Below, one piece after another: positions 30,802 to 43,910 of a DNA stretch of 64,000 nucleotides. The notes under the pieces were generated by a model. That model did not search any database and was not told the origin of the DNA. It saw nothing but the letters and a program-made list of their open reading frames with translations. Position numbers and translations under genes: made by a program. The stretch is from Mucilaginibacter defluvii (GTDB lineage: Bacteria > Bacteroidota > Bacteroidia > Sphingobacteriales > Sphingobacteriaceae), in contig NZ_BAABJI010000004.1 in the NCBI RefSeq assembly GCF_039543225.1, positions 186,001 through 250,000 of the forward strand. Reading direction: 5' to 3'. Numbering within the stretch: position 1 is the stretch's first letter; each line of letters starts with the position of its first letter.

Positions 30802-31722
30802 TTAACTGCGAGTATCATTGCCGTTATAAATGCTCAAGTAACTTTCGTAGCGTGAGGGCGCTATATCTTCGTTTTCAAGCGCTTCAAGCACGGCACATCC
30901 AGGCTCATTAATATGTCGGCAGTTATTAAAGCGGCAATCGTGCATACGCTCCCGCATTTCGGGAAAGAAGTGGCTGAGCTCCTGTTTCTCAATATCGATG
31001 ATACCCAGCTCACGTATGCCGGGCGTATCAATAATAAATCCGCCTTGCGGCAGTTCAAACATTTCGGCAAAGGTAGTGGTGTGCATGCCCTTATCGCTCC
31101 ATTCAGATATCTGGTGTGTACGCAGGTCAAGGTCTGGCAACAGGCGGTTGATCAAACTTGATTTACCTACGCCGGAATGACCGGAGATCAGGGTGATATT
31201 ATCTTTGAGCAAAGCCTGTACAGCGTCAATATTAGTACCCTCAAGCGCCGATACCTCATAGCAGGGATAACCAATATCCTCGTAAATGGCTTTATAAGCC
31301 TGTAATATTTCCAAGCCTTCGTCGCTAAAAAGGTCGAGTTTATTAAAGATCAGTTTAGCCGGAATATCATAGGCTTCGGCGGTAACCAAAAAGCGGTCGA
31401 TAAAACCCAGCGAGGTTCGCGGCGAGGCCAGGGTTACCACCAGCAAGGCCTGATCCAGATTGGCGGCAATGATCTGCGCTTGTTTTGACAGGTTGATGGA
31501 TTTGCGGATGATATAATTTTTACGCGGATGCAGATTGGTGATCACCCCGGTGCCTTGCTCGGGTTCCAATTCAAAATCAACCACATCGCCAACGGCAATG
31601 GGGTTGGTAGTGGTAATACCCTTTATACGGAACTTGCCCTTTATACGGCAATCGTAACGTTGTCCGTCGGGCGTTTGCGCCTGGTACCAGCTCCCGGTTG
31701 ATTTTGTAATTAATCCCTGCAT
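30802..31722 (-). CDS. rsgA: Ribosome small-subunit-dependent GTPase RsgA
   Basis: 306 residues. RsgA helps late maturation of the 30S subunit. It starts with an OB-fold (TKSTGSWYQAQTPDGQRYDC) and has a circularly permuted GTPase domain in which NKLD (G4) precedes the P-loop LISGHSGVGKSSLINRLLP (G1) and DTPGIRELG (G3). The C-terminal zinc motif is complete: CRFNNCRHINEPGCAV. The gene stands alone upstream of the outer membrane protein gene. Confidence 0.95.
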   Translation of the reverse strand: MQGLITKSTGSWYQAQTPDGQRYDCRIKGKFRIKGITTTNPIAVGDVVDFELEPEQGTGVITNLHPRKNYIIRKSINLSKQAQIIAANLDQALLVVTLASPRTSLGFIDRFLVTAEAYDIPAKLIFNKLDLFSDEGLEILQAYKAIYEDIGYPCYEVSALEGTNIDAVQALLKDNITLISGHSGVGKSSLINRLLPDLDLRTHQISEWSDKGMHTTTFAEMFELPQGGFIIDTPGIRELGIIDIEKQELSHFFPEMRERMHDCRFNNCRHINEPGCAVLEALENEDIAPSRYESYLSIYNGNDTRS

Positions 31723-31820: not shown

Positions 31821-32630
31821 ATGAAGATCGCCTTAGCCTCGCCGCCCTTTCCGGGCAGTATTCATCAAGCCCTTTTAAATCTCGAACAACTTACTGAGCA
31901 GGCCGCTGGCCAGGGAGCTGTAATTATCTGTTTCCCCGAAACCTATATTCCGGGGTACCCGATGCCGGGCTTTAAGCCGGAACAAGGCTCGTCCGAGAAA
32001 ATGGATGCCGCACTGAAAAGAGTCTGTAAGATAGCCTCTCAGCATAACATCGCCATTATTATACCGATGGATAAATACACGCCCGAAGGCATATATAATG
32101 TAGCTTACGTAATATCGGCACAGGGCGAGGTGCTGGGCTATCAAACCAAAAATCAGCTCGACCCTTCGGAAGACAATATATGGATTCCTGGCACGGAACG
32201 CGAACTGTTTGAAGTAAACGGATTGAAATTTGGCATCACTATTTGCCATGAAGGTTTCCGCTACCCGGAGTCAGTACGCTGGGCGGCACGCAATGGGGCG
32301 CATGTGGTTTTTCACCCGCATTTTGGCGGTAGTGATATCACCGGCACCACGCCAACTGAATGGGGCAGCATGAGCAGCCCTTACTATGAAAAGGCTATGA
32401 TGATGCGCGCCCTGGAGAACACTATTTACTTTGCCAGCGTTAATAATGCCACCCGCTATCCCGATTCGGCATCATCAGTAATAGCGCCTGATGGTACCTG
32501 TTTGGCGTATCAGCCTTATGGCGTTCCGGGTGTAATGGTGGTTGATATTGATCCGGCGCTGGCTACAGGCAATCTCGCAAAAAGATTTAAGCCAGCGCTT
32601 TATGCCGACGAATATTCAAAAATAAAATAG
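31821..32630 (+). CDS. Nitrilase-superfamily carbon-nitrogen hydrolase
   Basis: 269 residues, cytoplasmic. The catalytic triad of the superfamily is visible: E40 in CFPETYIPGYP, K110 in YQTKNQLDPSEDN and C142 in GITICHEGFRYPE. Members hydrolyse amides, nitriles or N-carbamoyl compounds; the closest branch cannot be set from sequence reading alone. It lies 98 bases downstream of the divergent rsgA and just ahead of the threonine leader on the same strand, from which it is separated by the leader promoter region. Confidence 0.88.
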   Translation: MKIALASPPFPGSIHQALLNLEQLTEQAAGQGAVIICFPETYIPGYPMPGFKPEQGSSEKMDAALKRVCKIASQHNIAIIIPMDKYTPEGIYNVAYVISAQGEVLGYQTKNQLDPSEDNIWIPGTERELFEVNGLKFGITICHEGFRYPESVRWAARNGAHVVFHPHFGGSDITGTTPTEWGSMSSPYYEKAMMMRALENTIYFASVNNATRYPDSASSVIAPDGTCLAYQPYGVPGVMVVDIDPALATGNLAKRFKPALYADEYSKIK

Positions 32631-32668: not shown

Positions 32669-32697
32669 GCCATGACCTTAGTGCGATAAGAAATTAT

Positions 32698-32763
32698 ATG
32701 TATAACAGCAACACCATTATTATTACCATTATTACCACCGGCATAGATATCGGAGGAAAGTAA
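32698..32763 (+). CDS. thrL: Threonine operon leader peptide (Thr/Ile-rich)
   Basis: A 21-codon frame: MYNSNT followed by a block of Ile and Thr codons (III T II TT), then GIDIGGK and TAA. Eleven of 21 residues are Thr or Ile, the end products of the pathway whose genes follow, exactly as in the thrL leader of enterobacteria (sequence unrelated). Codons 6-14 form the control block. Its last codons (32751-32760) can pair with the 5' arm of the downstream terminator, so ribosome position decides which RNA fold forms. Too short for usual gene calling, but its composition and position leave little doubt. Confidence 0.85.
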   Translation: MYNSNTIIITIITTGIDIGGK

Positions 32764-32813
32764 TCGTATGGTGTAAATAAAGATAAAACAAACCAACTGA
32801 CCGCCTTCCTCCG
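32751..32813 (+). promoter_or_regulatory. Antiterminator of the thr attenuator
   Basis: CGGAGGAA (32751-32758), inside the last leader codons, is an exact complement of TTCCTCCG (32806-32813), which covers half of the terminator's 5' arm and its loop. When a ribosome stalls on the Thr/Ile codons this segment is free and can block the terminator; when it reaches the stop codon it covers the segment and the terminator can form. Confidence 0.7.
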
Positions 32814-32837
32814 ACAAAGAGGAAGGCGGTTTTTTTT
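32801..32837 (+). terminator. Attenuator terminator upstream of thrA
   Basis: Ten-bp stem CCGCCTTCCT / AGGAAGGCGG (32801-32810 and 32820-32829) with a 9-base loop, followed by eight T. It ends 18 bases before the thrA start and is a classical intrinsic terminator. Confidence 0.92.
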
Positions 32838-32855
32838 AATAGCTATATCAACAAA

Positions 32856-35306
32856 ATGAAAGTCTTAAAATTCGGGGGCACCTCCGTAGGCTCAGTAAGC
32901 AGCATAACAACCCTGCTGCAAATAGTAAAAAACGACGTTGAGCAAGGCGAACGCCCGGTGGTGGTGCTATCGGCCATGAGCGGGGTTACCAACCTGCTGA
33001 TCAATATGGCCGAAGAGGCTGCCAAAGGCAACGAATTTACCGCGCAGCTTGCCGAGCTGGAACGCCGCCACTTTGATGTGGTAAAAAGCCTGCTCGATAT
33101 TCAGAACCAAAACCCGGCTTTCACTCGTCTGAAAATTCATTTCAACCAGTTGGAAGAATTGCTGCAAGGCGTACTTACCCTGCGTGAGCTGACCGCCAAA
33201 ACCCGCGACCTGATTGTTAGTTTTGGTGAGCGTTGCTCAACGCTGATGATCAGTAAAATCGCGGCCCAGCACTTTGGCAATGCCTTTTTTGTTGATGCAT
33301 CCGAAGCAATAAAGACCGACAGCGCCTTTGGTAATGCCCGGGTTGATACCGCGCTAAGCGAATTGCTGATCCGCGATCTGTATGCCAGCCATGCTGATAA
33401 AGTGTTGTTTGTTACCGGTTTTATTGCCAGTAACGAGGCCGGGCAGATCACCACGCTTGGTCGTGGCGGCAGTGATTATACTGCCGCTATCTTCGGTGCG
33501 GCCTTGAATGCACAGGAAATACAGATATGGACCGACGTAAACGGCATGATGACCGCCGACCCGCGCATGGTTAAAAAGGCCTTCCCGCTGAGCGAGCTGA
33601 CCTATACCGAGGCCATGGAGCTATCTTACTTTGGTGCCAAGGTGATCTACCCACCAACCATGATCCCGGCTTTTTTGAAAAAGATCCCTATCGTTATAAA
33701 AAATACTTTTGAACCTGAATTTGCAGGTACGGTTATACAGCACGAAAGCAAGGCATCCAACCAGCCTATAAAGGGTATATCATCCATCAATAACATCAGC
33801 ATACTTAATTTAATGGGTAGCGGCATGGTGGGTAAATCGGGCTTTAGCGGGCGTTTGTTCTCGCTGCTGGCCCGCGAGCAGATCAATGTTATCCTCATCA
33901 CCCAGTCGTCATCTGAGCATAGCATCACCTTTGCCATACAACCCGGTGATGCCGTACGCGCCAAAGCCATTATTGAGCAGGAGTTTGAATTGGAAATATT
34001 AGCCAATAAACTGGAACCCATCACCGTTGAAGAAAACCTGGCCATATTAGCCGTTGTTGGCGAAAACATGAAACAAACACCGGGCGTTTCGGGCAAGCTG
34101 TTTCATGCGCTGGGCCGTAATGGTGTAAATGTAAGGGCTATTGCACAGGGATCATCAGAATACAATATTTCGGTGATCATCAGCGAATATGACCTGGGCA
34201 AAGCGCTCAATGCCGTACACGATGCCTTTTTTGTTGACCTGTATAAAACCTTACATGCTTTTTGCCTGGGTACCGGCAACATCGGCAAAACACTGTTCGG
34301 CCAGCTTAAAGCCCATGCCGGTTTTTTACTTAGCGAAAATGGCATACAGGTAAAGGTAGTAGGCATCAGCAATACCCGCAAAATGATGTTCAATACCGAT
34401 GGCATCGACCTTGAAAATTGGCAACCCGCGCTTGAAGCCAGTACAAATGCAGCCGACCTGCGTTTGTTTATAGACACCATGAAGAGCATGAACCTGCCTA
34501 ACTGCGTGTTTATTGATAATACGGCAAGCCCGGTTCCGGTAGAGTTTTATGAGGAGGTGCTCAACTCAGCCATATCCGTAGTAACCTGTAATAAAATAGG
34601 CAACTCGGGCAGCTACAGCCGCTACAAAGCCTTTAAGGATGCGGCACGTACCCGCGGTGTCGACTTTTTTTATGAAACCAATGTGGGTGCAGGTTTGCCC
34701 ATCATCCGTACACTGAAAGACCTGATGAACAGCGGCGACCGGGTGCAACGTATCGAGGCCATCCTGTCGGGTACCATATCATTCATCTTTAACCAGTTTA
34801 AGGGCGATGCCAATTTTCATGACGTGGTTAAACTGGCGCAGGAGAAAGGCTACACCGAGCCAGACCCGCGCGACGACCTGCGCGGTACCGACTTTATGCG
34901 TAAGATATTGATCCTGGCGCGTGATGCCGGGCATACTTTAGAAGCCGCCGATGTGGAGATACAAAGCATACTGCCGCAAGCCTGCCTTGATGCTACTACC
35001 GTAGATGATTTTTACGCCGCGCTTAAAGCTGAGGACGCTTACTTTACCAACCTGAAACAACAGGCTGAAAGCGGTGGCAAGGTATTGCGTTACATTGGCA
35101 AACTGGAGGACAGCAAGGCATCCATCACCCTACAAATGGTTGATGAAAACCATCCGTTCTACATGCTGTCGGGCAGTGATAACATCATATCCTTTACTAC
35201 TGACAGGTACAAGGAGCGTCCATTGGTAGTAAAAGGCCCGGGCGCCGGTGCCGAGGTAACCGCCGCAGGCGTATTTGCTGATTTGATAAACGTGGGCGCT
35301 AATTAG
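32856..35306 (+). CDS. thrA: Bifunctional aspartate kinase / homoserine dehydrogenase I
   Basis: 816 residues. Residues 1-290 are the aspartate kinase (MKVLKFGGTSVG and FGERCSTLMIS, plus TLGRGGSDYTAAIFGAAL); 310-460 are two ACT regulatory domains (LMGSGMVGKSGFSGRLFSLL, TPGVSGKLFHALGRNGVNVR) for feedback by threonine; 465-816 the homoserine dehydrogenase with the NAD(P) motif (LGTGNIGKTLFGQL), GVDFFYETNVGAGLPIIRTL and the catalytic Lys/Asp region KGYTEPDPRDDLRGTDFMRK. It performs steps 1 and 3 of the threonine/methionine branch. It is controlled by the attenuator upstream and followed by thrB after 51 bases that carry a repeat. Confidence 0.97.
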   Translation: MKVLKFGGTSVGSVSSITTLLQIVKNDVEQGERPVVVLSAMSGVTNLLINMAEEAAKGNEFTAQLAELERRHFDVVKSLLDIQNQNPAFTRLKIHFNQLEELLQGVLTLRELTAKTRDLIVSFGERCSTLMISKIAAQHFGNAFFVDASEAIKTDSAFGNARVDTALSELLIRDLYASHADKVLFVTGFIASNEAGQITTLGRGGSDYTAAIFGAALNAQEIQIWTDVNGMMTADPRMVKKAFPLSELTYTEAMELSYFGAKVIYPPTMIPAFLKKIPIVIKNTFEPEFAGTVIQHESKASNQPIKGISSINNISILNLMGSGMVGKSGFSGRLFSLLAREQINVILITQSSSEHSITFAIQPGDAVRAKAIIEQEFELEILANKLEPITVEENLAILAVVGENMKQTPGVSGKLFHALGRNGVNVRAIAQGSSEYNISVIISEYDLGKALNAVHDAFFVDLYKTLHAFCLGTGNIGKTLFGQLKAHAGFLLSENGIQVKVVGISNTRKMMFNTDGIDLENWQPALEASTNAADLRLFIDTMKSMNLPNCVFIDNTASPVPVEFYEEVLNSAISVVTCNKIGNSGSYSRYKAFKDAARTRGVDFFYETNVGAGLPIIRTLKDLMNSGDRVQRIEAILSGTISFIFNQFKGDANFHDVVKLAQEKGYTEPDPRDDLRGTDFMRKILILARDAGHTLEAADVEIQSILPQACLDATTVDDFYAALKAEDAYFTNLKQQAESGGKVLRYIGKLEDSKASITLQMVDENHPFYMLSGSDNIISFTTDRYKERPLVVKGPGAGAEVTAAGVFADLINVGAN

Positions 35307-35357: not shown

Positions 35358-36362
35358 ATGAGTAACGATTTACAGGAAATAAATACAAACAGCGCTTTCA
35401 CACCCTTTAGGGGGATGGGGGGCCTGACGGCGGACAGTGTACACGTTTTTGCCCCGGCAACCGTAGCCAACGTAGTTTGCGGGTTTGATGTTTTAGGCTT
35501 TGCCGTTAACGAGCCCGGCGATGAGGTGGTTATGCGGGTTAAGGATACACCCGGCATCACCATCAGTAAAATCACGGGTGATGATGGCAGACTGCCGCTT
35601 GACCCGGCTAAGAACACCGTGAGTGTAAGCGTACAGCATTATCTGAATAGCATTGGCCGTGCCGATATCGGCTTGGATATTGAACTGCATAAAAAGATGC
35701 CTATCGGCAGTGGTTTGGGTTCAAGCTCGGCCAGTACGGTTGCGGGTTTGTATGCCATTAAAACCCTGATGGGTGATGACCGCGACCCTATAAACCTGCT
35801 GCCCTTTGCCATGAAAGGCGAGGAAATGGCCTGCGGGCATGGCCATGCAGATAACGTTGCGCCCGCCCTGTTAGGTGGCTTTGTGCTGATACGCAGTTAC
35901 GAACCGCTTGATGTGGTGCGCCTGCCGCATCCAAAGGATCTTTGGTGTGCTGTGGTATTCCCTGATGTTGATGTGCCAACCCGCGAGGCGCGTCAGATCA
36001 TTCGTAATAAAATAAATATGAAGGATGCCGTAACGCAATGGGGTAACATAGCAGGTTTAGTAAGTGGTTTGTTTATGCAGGATATTGACCTGATAGGCCG
36101 CAGTATGAAGGATGTACTGGTTGAACCGGTACGCTCCATGCTGATACCTGATTTTTACAAGATGCGCGAAATTGCCATGAGCAACGGCGCAGTAAGCTTC
36201 GGCATATCAGGCTCGGGGCCATCGGTATTCGCCTTTACCCGCGACGAGCAAACGGCAAAGGATATCACCCAAAAACTACAACAACACTTAACAGGATTAA
36301 AGATCGGCTCCAATACCTATGTATCTACGATAAATGATGCAGGGCCGAGAGTAATAGGATAA
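35358..36362 (+). CDS. thrB: Homoserine kinase
   Basis: 334 residues from ATG 35358. ThrB phosphorylates homoserine with ATP ahead of threonine synthase. GHMP kinase features: N-terminal ADSVHVFAPATVANVVCGFD, the P-loop-like MPIGSGLGSSSASTVAGL and the C-terminal SFGISGSGPSVFAFTRD. The first 25 residues (MSNDLQEINTNSAFTPFRGM and on) are not typical of the family, which starts about at DSVHVFAPAT, and are encoded partly by a GC-rich repeat. A second ATG at 35415 (MGGLTADSVH), preceded by AGGGGG, would give a normal-length 315-residue protein and is a fair alternative. Start therefore uncertain; gene certain. Confidence 0.93.
   Translation: MSNDLQEINTNSAFTPFRGMGGLTADSVHVFAPATVANVVCGFDVLGFAVNEPGDEVVMRVKDTPGITISKITGDDGRLPLDPAKNTVSVSVQHYLNSIGRADIGLDIELHKKMPIGSGLGSSSASTVAGLYAIKTLMGDDRDPINLLPFAMKGEEMACGHGHADNVAPALLGGFVLIRSYEPLDVVRLPHPKDLWCAVVFPDVDVPTREARQIIRNKINMKDAVTQWGNIAGLVSGLFMQDIDLIGRSMKDVLVEPVRSMLIPDFYKMREIAMSNGAVSFGISGSGPSVFAFTRDEQTAKDITQKLQQHLTGLKIGSNTYVSTINDAGPRVIG
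35395..35423. repeat. Inverted copy of the GC-rich repeat inside the thrB 5' end
   Basis: CTTTCACACCCTTTAGGGGG followed by ATGGGGGGC resembles the reverse complement of the repeat at 35311-35338 (TTCCCCCTTCAGGGGGTTAG and GGGG). It encodes thrB residues about 14-22 if the first ATG is used, and includes a palindrome CCCT-TT-AGGG. Confidence 0.5.
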
Positions 36363-36472: not shown

Positions 36473-37777
36473 ATGGAACTATACAGCACCAACAATACAT
36501 CAACAAGCGTATCATTTAAAGAAGCGGTTTTTAACAGTATGCCGCAGGATAAAGGTTTATATATGCCGGTAAACATTCCGCGCTTAAGCGACGAGTTTAT
36601 CAGCAACCTGGGCGAGCTAACCCTGCCGGAGATAGCCTTTGGCGTAGCCAAAAATATATTGGGCGATACCATCCCCGAGGCTGAACTGAGAGCACTGATA
36701 GATGATGCTATTAACTTTGATGCCCCGGTAGTGGAGCTGGAGGATGATGTATATGTGCTGGAGCTGTTCCACGGTCCGTCATTAGCCTTTAAGGATTTTG
36801 GTGCCCGCTTTATGAGCCGCATAATGAGCTATTTTTTAGAGGCAGGCGAGAAGCAGCTTGATGTACTGGTAGCCACCTCGGGCGATACCGGCGGTGCCGT
36901 AGCCTTGGGTTTTTTAGGCGTGCCGAATACCCGTGTTACGATCCTTTACCCTAAAGGTAAAGTAAGCGGCGTGCAGGAGCAGCAGCTAACCACCAACGGC
37001 CAAAACATCCGCGCGCTGGAGGTCGAAGGTACTTTTGATGATTGCCAGGCCTTGGTTAAGCAAGCTTTTACCGATGCGGAACTGAATGCGACCTACCGCC
37101 TTACATCAGCCAACTCTATTAACATCGCACGCTTGATACCGCAAACTTTTTACTACTTTAATGCCTATGCGCAGTTGCTGCGAAAGGGCAAAAGCAAGGT
37201 AGCTTTTGCGGTGCCAAGCGGTAACTTTGGTAATATTGGTGCAGGTTTGTTAGCCTGGAAAATGGGCTTGCCGGTTGTGCAATTTATTGCCGCTACCAAT
37301 GCTAATGATACAGTACCCGCGTTCTTAAAAACCGGTGTTTATGAGCCAAAGCCATCGGTATCAACCATATCAAACGCGATGGATGTTGGCAACCCAAGCA
37401 ACTGGGTGCGCATTGCCGATCTGTTTAAAGCTGACGAAACGGCATTGAAGCAACTCATCACTGGGTACAGTTATAACGATGAACAAACTGTTGAGGCTAT
37501 CGAAAAGGTTTATGCTGATCACCAGTATGTGGTTTGCCCGCACACGGCTATTGCCTGGAAGGCTTTAAAGGAATGGCAGGCAGACCATGCGCAAATAACC
37601 GGTGTTTTCCTGTCAACCGCGCATCCGTGCAAGTTTCCGGATGTAATACCGGCTGATGTAGCGGTGAACATTTCGGTACCCGAATCCGTTAAACAGCTTG
37701 AAGGAAGAGCGAAACAAGCGGTACAAATGCCGGCCAGTTTTGAAGCCTTTAAAACATACCTGTTAAAGAATATTTAA
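36473..37777 (+). CDS. thrC: Threonine synthase
   Basis: 434 residues. Converts O-phosphohomoserine to threonine using pyridoxal phosphate; last gene of the thr pathway here. The N-terminus MELYSTNNTSTSVSFKEAVF, the PLP lysine in HGPSLAFKDFGARFMSRIMS, ATSGDTGGAVALGF and the later FAVPSGNFGNIGAGLLAWKM and NPSNWVRI are signatures of the fold-type II enzyme of the short (bacterial) class. Its stop codon overlaps the following lipoprotein start (TAATG at 37775-37779), so the lipoprotein is probably translated from the thr mRNA. Confidence 0.97.
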   Translation: MELYSTNNTSTSVSFKEAVFNSMPQDKGLYMPVNIPRLSDEFISNLGELTLPEIAFGVAKNILGDTIPEAELRALIDDAINFDAPVVELEDDVYVLELFHGPSLAFKDFGARFMSRIMSYFLEAGEKQLDVLVATSGDTGGAVALGFLGVPNTRVTILYPKGKVSGVQEQQLTTNGQNIRALEVEGTFDDCQALVKQAFTDAELNATYRLTSANSINIARLIPQTFYYFNAYAQLLRKGKSKVAFAVPSGNFGNIGAGLLAWKMGLPVVQFIAATNANDTVPAFLKTGVYEPKPSVSTISNAMDVGNPSNWVRIADLFKADETALKQLITGYSYNDEQTVEAIEKVYADHQYVVCPHTAIAWKALKEWQADHAQITGVFLSTAHPCKFPDVIPADVAVNISVPESVKQLEGRAKQAVQMPASFEAFKTYLLKNI

Positions 37778-43577: not shown

Positions 43578-43871
43578 ATGAAAAATATAGTAAAAGCCGC
43601 TATTGTAGCGGCAGGCTTATTTGCCGCCTCATACAGCTATGCGCAAAGTGTAGGTCAGGACGTAAAGAAAACGGCCAAAAAAGTAGGCAACAAAACGGCG
43701 GAGGTCGCTTCAAAAGGCGCTTCTTCAGTAGTTGATAAAAAATACGACGGCAAAGCCGGCCCTAATAATGAGACCATCTTTATTGATAAAAACTCGGCCT
43801 ATTATTACATCAACAAAAAAGGTAAACGCGTATATATCCCGAAAGAGCAACTACGTGATAAAGTAGAATAA
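43578..43871 (+). CDS. Small secreted basic protein
   Basis: 97 residues. Signal peptide (IVKAAIVAAGLFAASYSYAQ), then a Lys/Ala-rich helix (GQDVKKTAKKVGNKTAEVAS) and a short beta segment (ETIFIDKNSAYYYINKKGKR followed by VYIPKEQLRDKVE) that is found as a small repeat in many secreted Bacteroidota proteins. Predicted to be periplasmic. Function unknown. It shares a bidirectional terminator with the convergent DUF4136 gene. Confidence 0.75.
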   Translation: MKNIVKAAIVAAGLFAASYSYAQSVGQDVKKTAKKVGNKTAEVASKGASSVVDKKYDGKAGPNNETIFIDKNSAYYYINKKGKRVYIPKEQLRDKVE

Positions 43872-43910
43872 AATAAAAAACGCCCGCTGATTTAGCGGAC
43901 GTTTTTTATT
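43872..43910. terminator. Bidirectional terminator after the small secreted protein gene
   Basis: AATAAAAAACGCCCGCT and AGCGGACGTTTTTTATT are inverted copies with one mismatch around loop GATTT; A-run on one side and T-run on the other serve both strands (the DUF4136 gene ends at 43926 on the minus strand). Confidence 0.88.

Follow-up and report, generated by a model that had tools for sequence, protein, structure and literature searches.

Upstream of thrA in Mucilaginibacter defluvii, a short open reading frame rich in Thr and Ile codons is followed by a hairpin with a U tract, and the question raised by this locus is whether the arrangement is a threonine operon attenuator of the enterobacterial type. 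The window, a stretch of 64,000 nucleotides, was analyzed together with related genomes. Judging from sequence comparison, the thrABC leader is very probably a ribosome-mediated transcription attenuator. Covariation and spacing extend amino acid attenuation of thr operons, for which the enterobacterial case is the textbook example, to a Bacteroidota family. The preliminary description had proposed an enterobacterial-type attenuator in this one Bacteroidota genome; the attenuator appears real, but it is not a single-genome oddity, since it occurs family-wide and is of a known kind.

Leader elements in the window

The operon genes follow one another on the forward strand. thrA (32856-35306) encodes a fused aspartate kinase/homoserine dehydrogenase I (NF006959, 1052 bits against a cut-off of 726), and the genes for homoserine kinase (thrB, 35358-36362) and threonine synthase (thrC, 36473-37777) both pass their NCBIfam cut-offs. 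On the other side of the leader, rsgA (30802-31722, reverse strand, TIGR00157 over cut-off) lies 5' of thrA with an amidase-like gene (31821-32630) in between. An RsgA-type motif was found inside the 1.5 kb flanks of thrA at 31 of 46 family loci, so that rsgA beside thrA may be the older gene order.

The leader peptide frame (32698-32763, forward strand, as are all elements below) has 21 codons and reads MYNSNTIIITIITTGIDIGGK before its stop codon. Translation confirmed the 11 Thr and Ile residues reported earlier, four Thr and seven Ile. Segment 1 has as its core ACACCAT (32711-32717), within Asn-Thr-Ile codons, which is the exact complement of ATGGTGT (32768-32774), the 3' part of segment 2, located just past the stop codon; this pair adds to the elements listed in the preliminary description. 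The last two Thr codons (32734-32739) would be the decisive stall site; the second of them begins 13 nt 5' of the antiterminator strand. That strand, TCGGAGGAA (32750-32758), forms the 5' part of segment 2 and lies within the last four sense codons.

Segment 3 (32799-32811), recognized by hairpin and complementarity, is the terminator 5' arm, and segment 4 (32819-32837), with its covariation in relatives, comprises the 3' arm and the U8 tract (32830-32837). The terminator (32799-32837) has 13 bp, a 7-nt loop and T8, with a hairpin energy of −23.6 kcal/mol, in keeping with the strong terminator claimed before. Its 5' arm overlaps the antiterminator 3' strand TTCCTCCGA (32806-32814), which consists of the end of segment 3 and the loop bases 32812-32814. 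The match between 32750-32758 and 32806-32814 is exact over 9 nt, one base longer than the eight first described, and extends to 12 bp if one mismatch is permitted. A stretch comprising just the antiterminator pair folded at −20.7 kcal/mol (z −4.2), while the region 32690-32845 gave a z of −4.6, with none of 200 shuffles equally stable. The pattern of strand, arm and hairpin occurs once in the 4.66 Mb genome. A scan for the promoter TAnnTTT[AG] 5' of the leader frame found it in 24 of 78 leaders, no clear excess over the 23% of shuffles, and gave none in the window.

Conservation and covariation in Sphingobacteriaceae

A thrA match was obtained in 99 of the 121 family genomes sampled, and the 450 bases 5' of each were read; the other 22 had no thrA match at E ≤ 1e−20. 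A short Thr/Ile-rich frame was present upstream of thrA at 97 of the 99 loci, as judged by reading. Likewise at 97 of 99, a GC hairpin precedes a run of three or more U, 96 of these being found by script at −12.9 kcal/mol or better and the 97th (L035) by eye, its U tract being interrupted; interrupted tracts are found in a few relatives (L028, L035, L054, L062 and L064). Only L100 and L101 lacked the leader; these two family thrA matches scored lowest among the 99, at 41% and 43% identity. The closest named relatives are Mucilaginibacter, with 79-80% identical ThrA. By a fixed rule, the leader was found in 15 of 15 named family records, including Pedobacter, Sphingobacterium, Parapedobacter and Daejeonella, and by reading in all of 13 extra thrA upstream regions of the same genus (L102-L113, L117) that were kept outside the counts. 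Retention of Thr/Ile codons in homologous leaders, on which the preliminary description had staked its proposal, is therefore borne out. The distance from terminator to thrA ranges from 13 to 199 nt.

For the pairing tests, the 97 leaders were reduced to 79 (alignment A1) by dropping 18 that were at least 88% identical to a kept one. Test totals are 78 and 96, since L035 is included in alignment A1 and absent from the scripted tests. Leader start codons were picked by script, and a few leaders are too long or too short. The coding-frame signal was modest: synonymous changes made up 99 of 417 changed codons in frame, compared with 60 of 414 and 80 of 424 out of frame.

Compensatory changes, the second comparison proposed at the outset, were found in terminator and antiterminator alike. 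For the terminator, 97.0% of cells were paired among the 79 non-redundant leaders, and 7 of 9 pairs had changes on both strands (90 cells). The covariation score was reached by none of 500 shuffles and fell from 0.414 to 0.183 or less when the partner was slid by 1-3 columns. Mutual information on a MAFFT alignment also recovered the terminator. The Thr/Ile repeats blur the register in the remaining two helices; these were instead assessed by comparing pairing energies inside a genus with those across genera, and in addition by a fitted pair count controlled across genera. The per-leader tests ignore relatedness, so the genus counts are the safer ones.

In most genera the antiterminator pairs as GGAGGAAG with CTTCCTCC, and diverged arms have matching strands, as in ATCGGGAGC/GCTCCCGAT (L098), CGGGAC/GTCCCG (L076) and CGAGGGAAG with CTTCTCTCG (genus g15). 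Among the 16 leaders whose terminator arm does not contain CTTCC, the own partner was better than the mean of either CTTCC-type cross in 15, L074 being the exception. Over all leaders the contrast between own and foreign partners is smaller, since most arms share a core: own partners outdid those from other genera in 58 of the 78 leaders and, by genus, in 17 of 18 (p 2.3e−5 at the genus level), with genus g4 running opposite, and the median share of foreign arms with binding equal to or stronger than that of the own arm was 29%. When each genus was represented by one leader, own pairs averaged −16.9 and deranged pairs −15.2, with overlapping ranges. The uninterrupted antiterminator helix had a length of 8.1 with own and 7.1 with foreign partners; it reached at least 6 bp in 74 of 78 leaders, and the shortest was 5 bp.

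The helix between segments 1 and 2 is likely to be real in these leaders, as the same kind of comparison suggests. Own pairing exceeded the mean across genera in 64 of 78 leaders in one direction and in 63 in the other; averaged over both directions, it was stronger in 17 of 18 genera, with g13, g16 and g25 failing in one of the two. Permutation of synonymous codons weakened the helix in 61 of 78 leaders. Thirteen of the 78 ranked among the strongest 5% of their synonymous resamplings, which the window did not (P 0.255), and uninterrupted helices of at least 7 bp were formed by 43 of 78 (55%) with their own partner compared with 45% with foreign ones.

Ribosome geometry and the amino acids sensed

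Relative to the end of the stop codon, the start of the antiterminator in the 96 leaders ranges from 29 nt upstream to 4 nt downstream. The stop position varies because some leaders read through the ATGGTG stretch, while others stop before segment 2. Measured from where the last Thr codon begins, the distance to the antiterminator has a median of 14 nt (interquartile range 11-15, range 3-35) and is within 10-18 nt in 78 of 96 leaders. The spacing is tighter with respect to the Thr codon than to the stop codon, with standard deviations of 4.6 versus 7.7 in the 96 leaders and 5.0 versus 7.0 in the 78 non-redundant ones. A ribosome reaches about 12 nt past its codon (PMC4833913), and the 14-nt Thr spacing is about that reach. 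The elements, their conservation, their covariation and this spacing are direct observations, and the family comparison and the spacing support the stalling geometry described earlier, with the antiterminator strand in the last codons.

Nascent RNA was also folded under the constraint that ribosome-covered bases were barred from pairing, for which reason the outcome is largely geometric. The antiterminator formed in 96 of 96 leaders when the ribosome was placed at the last Thr codon leaving segment 2 clear; at the first Thr codon it formed in 91, at the very last Thr codon, clearing or not, in 78, and at the stop codon in 4 of 96. Equilibrium folding of ribosome-free nascent RNA produced the antiterminator in 63 of 96 leaders, that of the window included (P 0.9997), and therefore misses the default termination of an untranslated leader.

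Three features by which an attenuator is recognized are found here: a short frame rich in the amino acids of the operon (11 of 21 residues; 97 of 99 genomes), an intrinsic terminator between this frame and the first gene, as seen in sequence and covariation, and an exclusive antiterminator that, by geometry and covariation, would be covered at the stop codon and free on stalling. We infer that the frame is translated and that ribosome and polymerase are coupled, as well as how efficient termination is and which amino acids are sensed. RNA polymerase would transcribe the leader with a ribosome trailing closely. When charged Thr-tRNA (here probably Ile-tRNA too) is ample, the ribosome would reach the stop codon and cover segment 2 (32750-32758); the terminator (32799-32837) would then fold and transcription would end before thrA. 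When charged tRNA is scarce, the ribosome would stall in the Thr/Ile run and leave segment 2 exposed; the free segment would pair with 32806-32814 before the terminator 3' arm exists, and the polymerase would enter thrA. Bacteroidota are reported to rely little on Shine-Dalgarno pairing. The leader can serve to test how tightly ribosome and polymerase couple in this phylum.

The preliminary description had counted Thr and Ile, the amino acids made through thrABC. Sensing of Ile is less secure than that of Thr, and its content varies among genera. All 96 scored leaders contain Thr (2-11 codons), which is, on this comparison, the constant signal of the family leaders; Ile ranges from 0 to 12. 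It is possible, if rather unlikely, that the same attenuator senses threonine as its sole signal; the Ile codons would then be passengers that pairing or drift has preserved, and starvation for isoleucine would have little effect. Such a sensor would suit the constancy of Thr (96 of 96 leaders) beside an Ile content that drops to none, and genera g18 and g21, which are nearly Thr-only, with means of 7.0 and 8.5 Thr versus 1.2 and 1.9 Ile. The window's own leader, by contrast, holds seven Ile and four Thr, its genus is balanced at 5.9 Thr and 5.6 Ile per leader, genera g14, g16, g17 and g25 contain more Ile than Thr, and the E. coli leader also combines both amino acids; in addition, the spacing figures from codon to antiterminator cover Thr codons only. 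For the window's genus, sensing of Ile in addition to Thr is probable.

A leader acting through translation, an RNA-binding protein or a metabolite, and not through ribosome stalling and termination, is very improbable. The variable distance between terminator and thrA (13-199 nt) leaves room for other layers of control, and no Rfam family reached its gathering score in the window, so that no known class speaks for or against this kind of control. The U-tract terminator, the covariation and the Thr spacing nevertheless fit stalling and not a ligand-binding fold, and no conserved core was seen by eye in alignment A1 outside the codons and the pairing strands. That the hairpin is simply the ordinary terminator of the amidase-like gene (31821-32630), with a chance frame and coincidental complementarity, agrees with its position 3' of a same-strand gene but is extremely improbable, given that frame and hairpin are retained in 97 of 99 genomes, that antiterminator strand and terminator arm change together and that the fixed rule found a Thr/Ile-rich frame in just 20 of 1760 shuffled non-family upstream sequences.

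Leaders outside the family and relation to known systems

thrA was also searched for in the class, yielding 13/119 with a 115-residue query and 34/159 with the full-length query. In total, 88 non-family thrA loci were scored, 25 from the full-length class search and 63 from a second set, some of which are possibly of the same species. Four loci labelled as other phyla (L201, L203, L226, L232) were kept among the 63, and among the 25, L158, where the cut was misplaced and the frame is not the ThrA start, was counted as a locus without a leader. By the fixed rule, a Thr/Ile-rich leader was present at 36 of the 88 loci, compared with 20 of 1760 shuffles, and 52 had none. Upstream of two genes for similar ThrA proteins, L134 (62% identical) has only a degenerate leader and L197 (65% identical) has no leader.

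Three of the 36, found with R1, a model built from the Sphingobacteriaceae leaders, have the form seen in the window: Epilithonimonas hominis (L191), a Chitinophagaceae metagenome-assembled genome (L184) and Empedobacter tilapiae (L174). ThrA is 63% identical to that of the window in L174 and 52% in L191, versus 46-49% in most other Flavobacteriales loci examined; since these identities are above most others, transfer of the operon with its leader is hinted at for both loci.

In a different form, a tight GC hairpin has the stop codon at its loop, as in ACGGGG-TAA-CCCGT and TACCCC-TTA-GGGGTA. This form was found in 23 of the 36 Thr/Ile leaders (23 of 88 loci) and in 0 of 1760 shuffles, in each case upstream of thrA (L199, L204-L207, L211-L213, L216, L218, L219, L221, L225, L231, L233, L238, L138, L140, L145, L147-L149 and L152). 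By script, none of these 23 loci had an intrinsic terminator before thrA (hairpin of −10 kcal/mol or better and four U), and by eye a stretch holding CATAT follows many of the stop hairpins. In named genomes the motif was found at four places in three of five and at two places in two of six; M. defluvii itself, included in both sets, had none.

From sequence, the stop-hairpin form is possibly a different attenuator output. It is conceivable, although on balance not quite probable, that the Bacteroidota thr leader is an old phylum-wide sensor with exchangeable outputs, a terminator in Sphingobacteriaceae and, in many others that retain the Thr/Ile run, an apparently undescribed stop hairpin, often followed by CATAT. 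This second form would then belong to many Flavobacteriaceae, Cyclobacteriaceae, Chitinophagaceae and relatives, with Rho-dependent termination, pausing or translational control as candidate outputs.

R1 was also run over 295 Bacteroidia genomes, of which 23 matched, ten within the family. Fourteen of the 15 non-family places carried a recognizable leader, L271 being the remaining one. With a frame and a terminator, His leaders precede hisG (L261, L265, L266, L268), and Ile or Ile/Val leaders precede ilvA, ilvE or ilvD (L267, L269, L272, L273), with a further leader of the Ile or Ile/Val type at L263. A Tyr/Phe leader with a terminator precedes a gene for prephenate dehydratase that is below its curated cut-off (L262). 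Two genera have a Cys leader and a terminator ahead of a sulfite/nitrite reductase-like gene; one leader ends in YCCMCKNHRRKCCY (L274, minus strand, gene below curated cut-off) and the other contains NCCMMCMQKRK (L270). The R1 matches also include a Tyr leader before phenylalanine 4-hydroxylase (L275, the same gene as L336) and an Asn-rich leader, MMNFYFNNNFNYATPPGGD, with a terminator before asnA (L264). Ten of the downstream genes were checked by family search; for L261, L266 and L270 the gene name comes from likeness alone. As a general feature of asnA the Asn leader was rejected, an Asn-rich frame being found at one of 12 other asnA loci (L306).

In an uncontrolled count, a frame with at least four Tyr in 10 residues, for example MISTVNNYYYYHTPQAER, was found at 7 of 30 phenylalanine-hydroxylase loci (L327, L334, L335, L336, L337, L344, L346), and in three of the seven a hairpin of −15 kcal/mol or better was followed by U. 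Placed before an enzyme that makes Tyr from Phe, these leaders would be a tyrosine-sensing attenuator. As findings, the stop-hairpin form and the leaders of other operons may be newer than the thr attenuator itself.

Among the papers that the literature searches listed, none was recognized as a description of a Bacteroidota thr leader, although the attenuation survey of Lopatovskaya et al. 2010 (Mol Biol 44:128) may list one. Bacteroid-trp RNA contains Trp codons, and leader-peptide attenuation has been suggested for it. This RNA (RF01692), presented by Weinberg et al. 2010 (PMC2864571) as a predicted cis-regulatory RNA of Bacteroidetes, differs from the present leader in belonging to another operon, and no RF01692 match was found in the window. 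Leader-peptide attenuation is suggested for amino acid operons of Flavobacterium psychrophilum (PMC9723704), and the elements before pheA and hisG are described in other Flavobacteriaceae genera as well; neither threonine nor thrA occurs in the main text of that paper, and the Flavobacterium thr leaders found here are of the stop-hairpin form. Attenuation is also suggested for small reading frames in 5' untranslated regions of Bacteroides thetaiotaomicron (PMC7366714). A 2010 survey states that no such case was known outside Proteobacteria and Actinobacteria before its own Firmicutes examples (PMC2965389).

The Rfam model of the enterobacterial thr leader (RF00506, Thr_leader) matched the window over the whole model (1-118) with 25.3 bits and E 0.0045, below its gathering score of 55, and was the top-scoring of 4227 families. 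On a slightly longer stretch its E-value was 0.0079, and an unrelated sRNA family, RsaJ, had a lower one (0.0042). Of 20 chosen relatives, 19 matched Thr_leader at E ≤ 1 and 13 at E ≤ 0.01, the best with 49.2 bits and none at gathering; unrelated families reached E 0.00013 on the same 20. The Phe_leader and His_leader models scored 23.5 and 21.2 bits on the window. Conversely, R1 gave 35.6 bits with the E. coli thr leader, 20.1 with phe and 13.3 with his, without a match to ilv or leu, and 45-60 bits with the Cys, His and Tyr leaders of other Bacteroidia. Over the M. defluvii genome R1 had 34 matches at E ≤ 10, two of them in the window, at 32682 and 43770. The latter (43770-43910, 29.8 bits) was rejected as a leader, being the 3' end of the frame 43578-43871 with its terminator. 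Since an ordinary terminator scores 29.8 bits and non-thr leaders up to 60, R1 sees the general architecture.

The earlier statement that the leader is unrelated in sequence to enterobacterial thrL was thus too strong, as the models match each other below threshold. The window's leader shares several features with E. coli K-12 thrL (L246): both peptides have 21 codons with Thr-Thr-Gly shortly before the end, both have the antiterminator strand in the last codons, complementary to the terminator 5' arm (244-252 with 280-288 in E. coli), and both precede a fused ThrA (39% identical). The distance from the last Thr codon to the antiterminator is 9 nt in E. coli and 13 nt in the window. The two differ in the pairing sequence, GGTGCGGGC in E. 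coli versus TCGGAGGAA in the window, and in codon content, with Ile exceeding Thr in the window and nearly Thr-only forms in some genera of the family. Mutual recognition below threshold fits homology or convergence, and it makes the choice between them testable. The family also supplies dozens of diverged natural leaders that differ from one another in pairing sequence, in the position of the stop codon and in how much Thr and Ile they contain.
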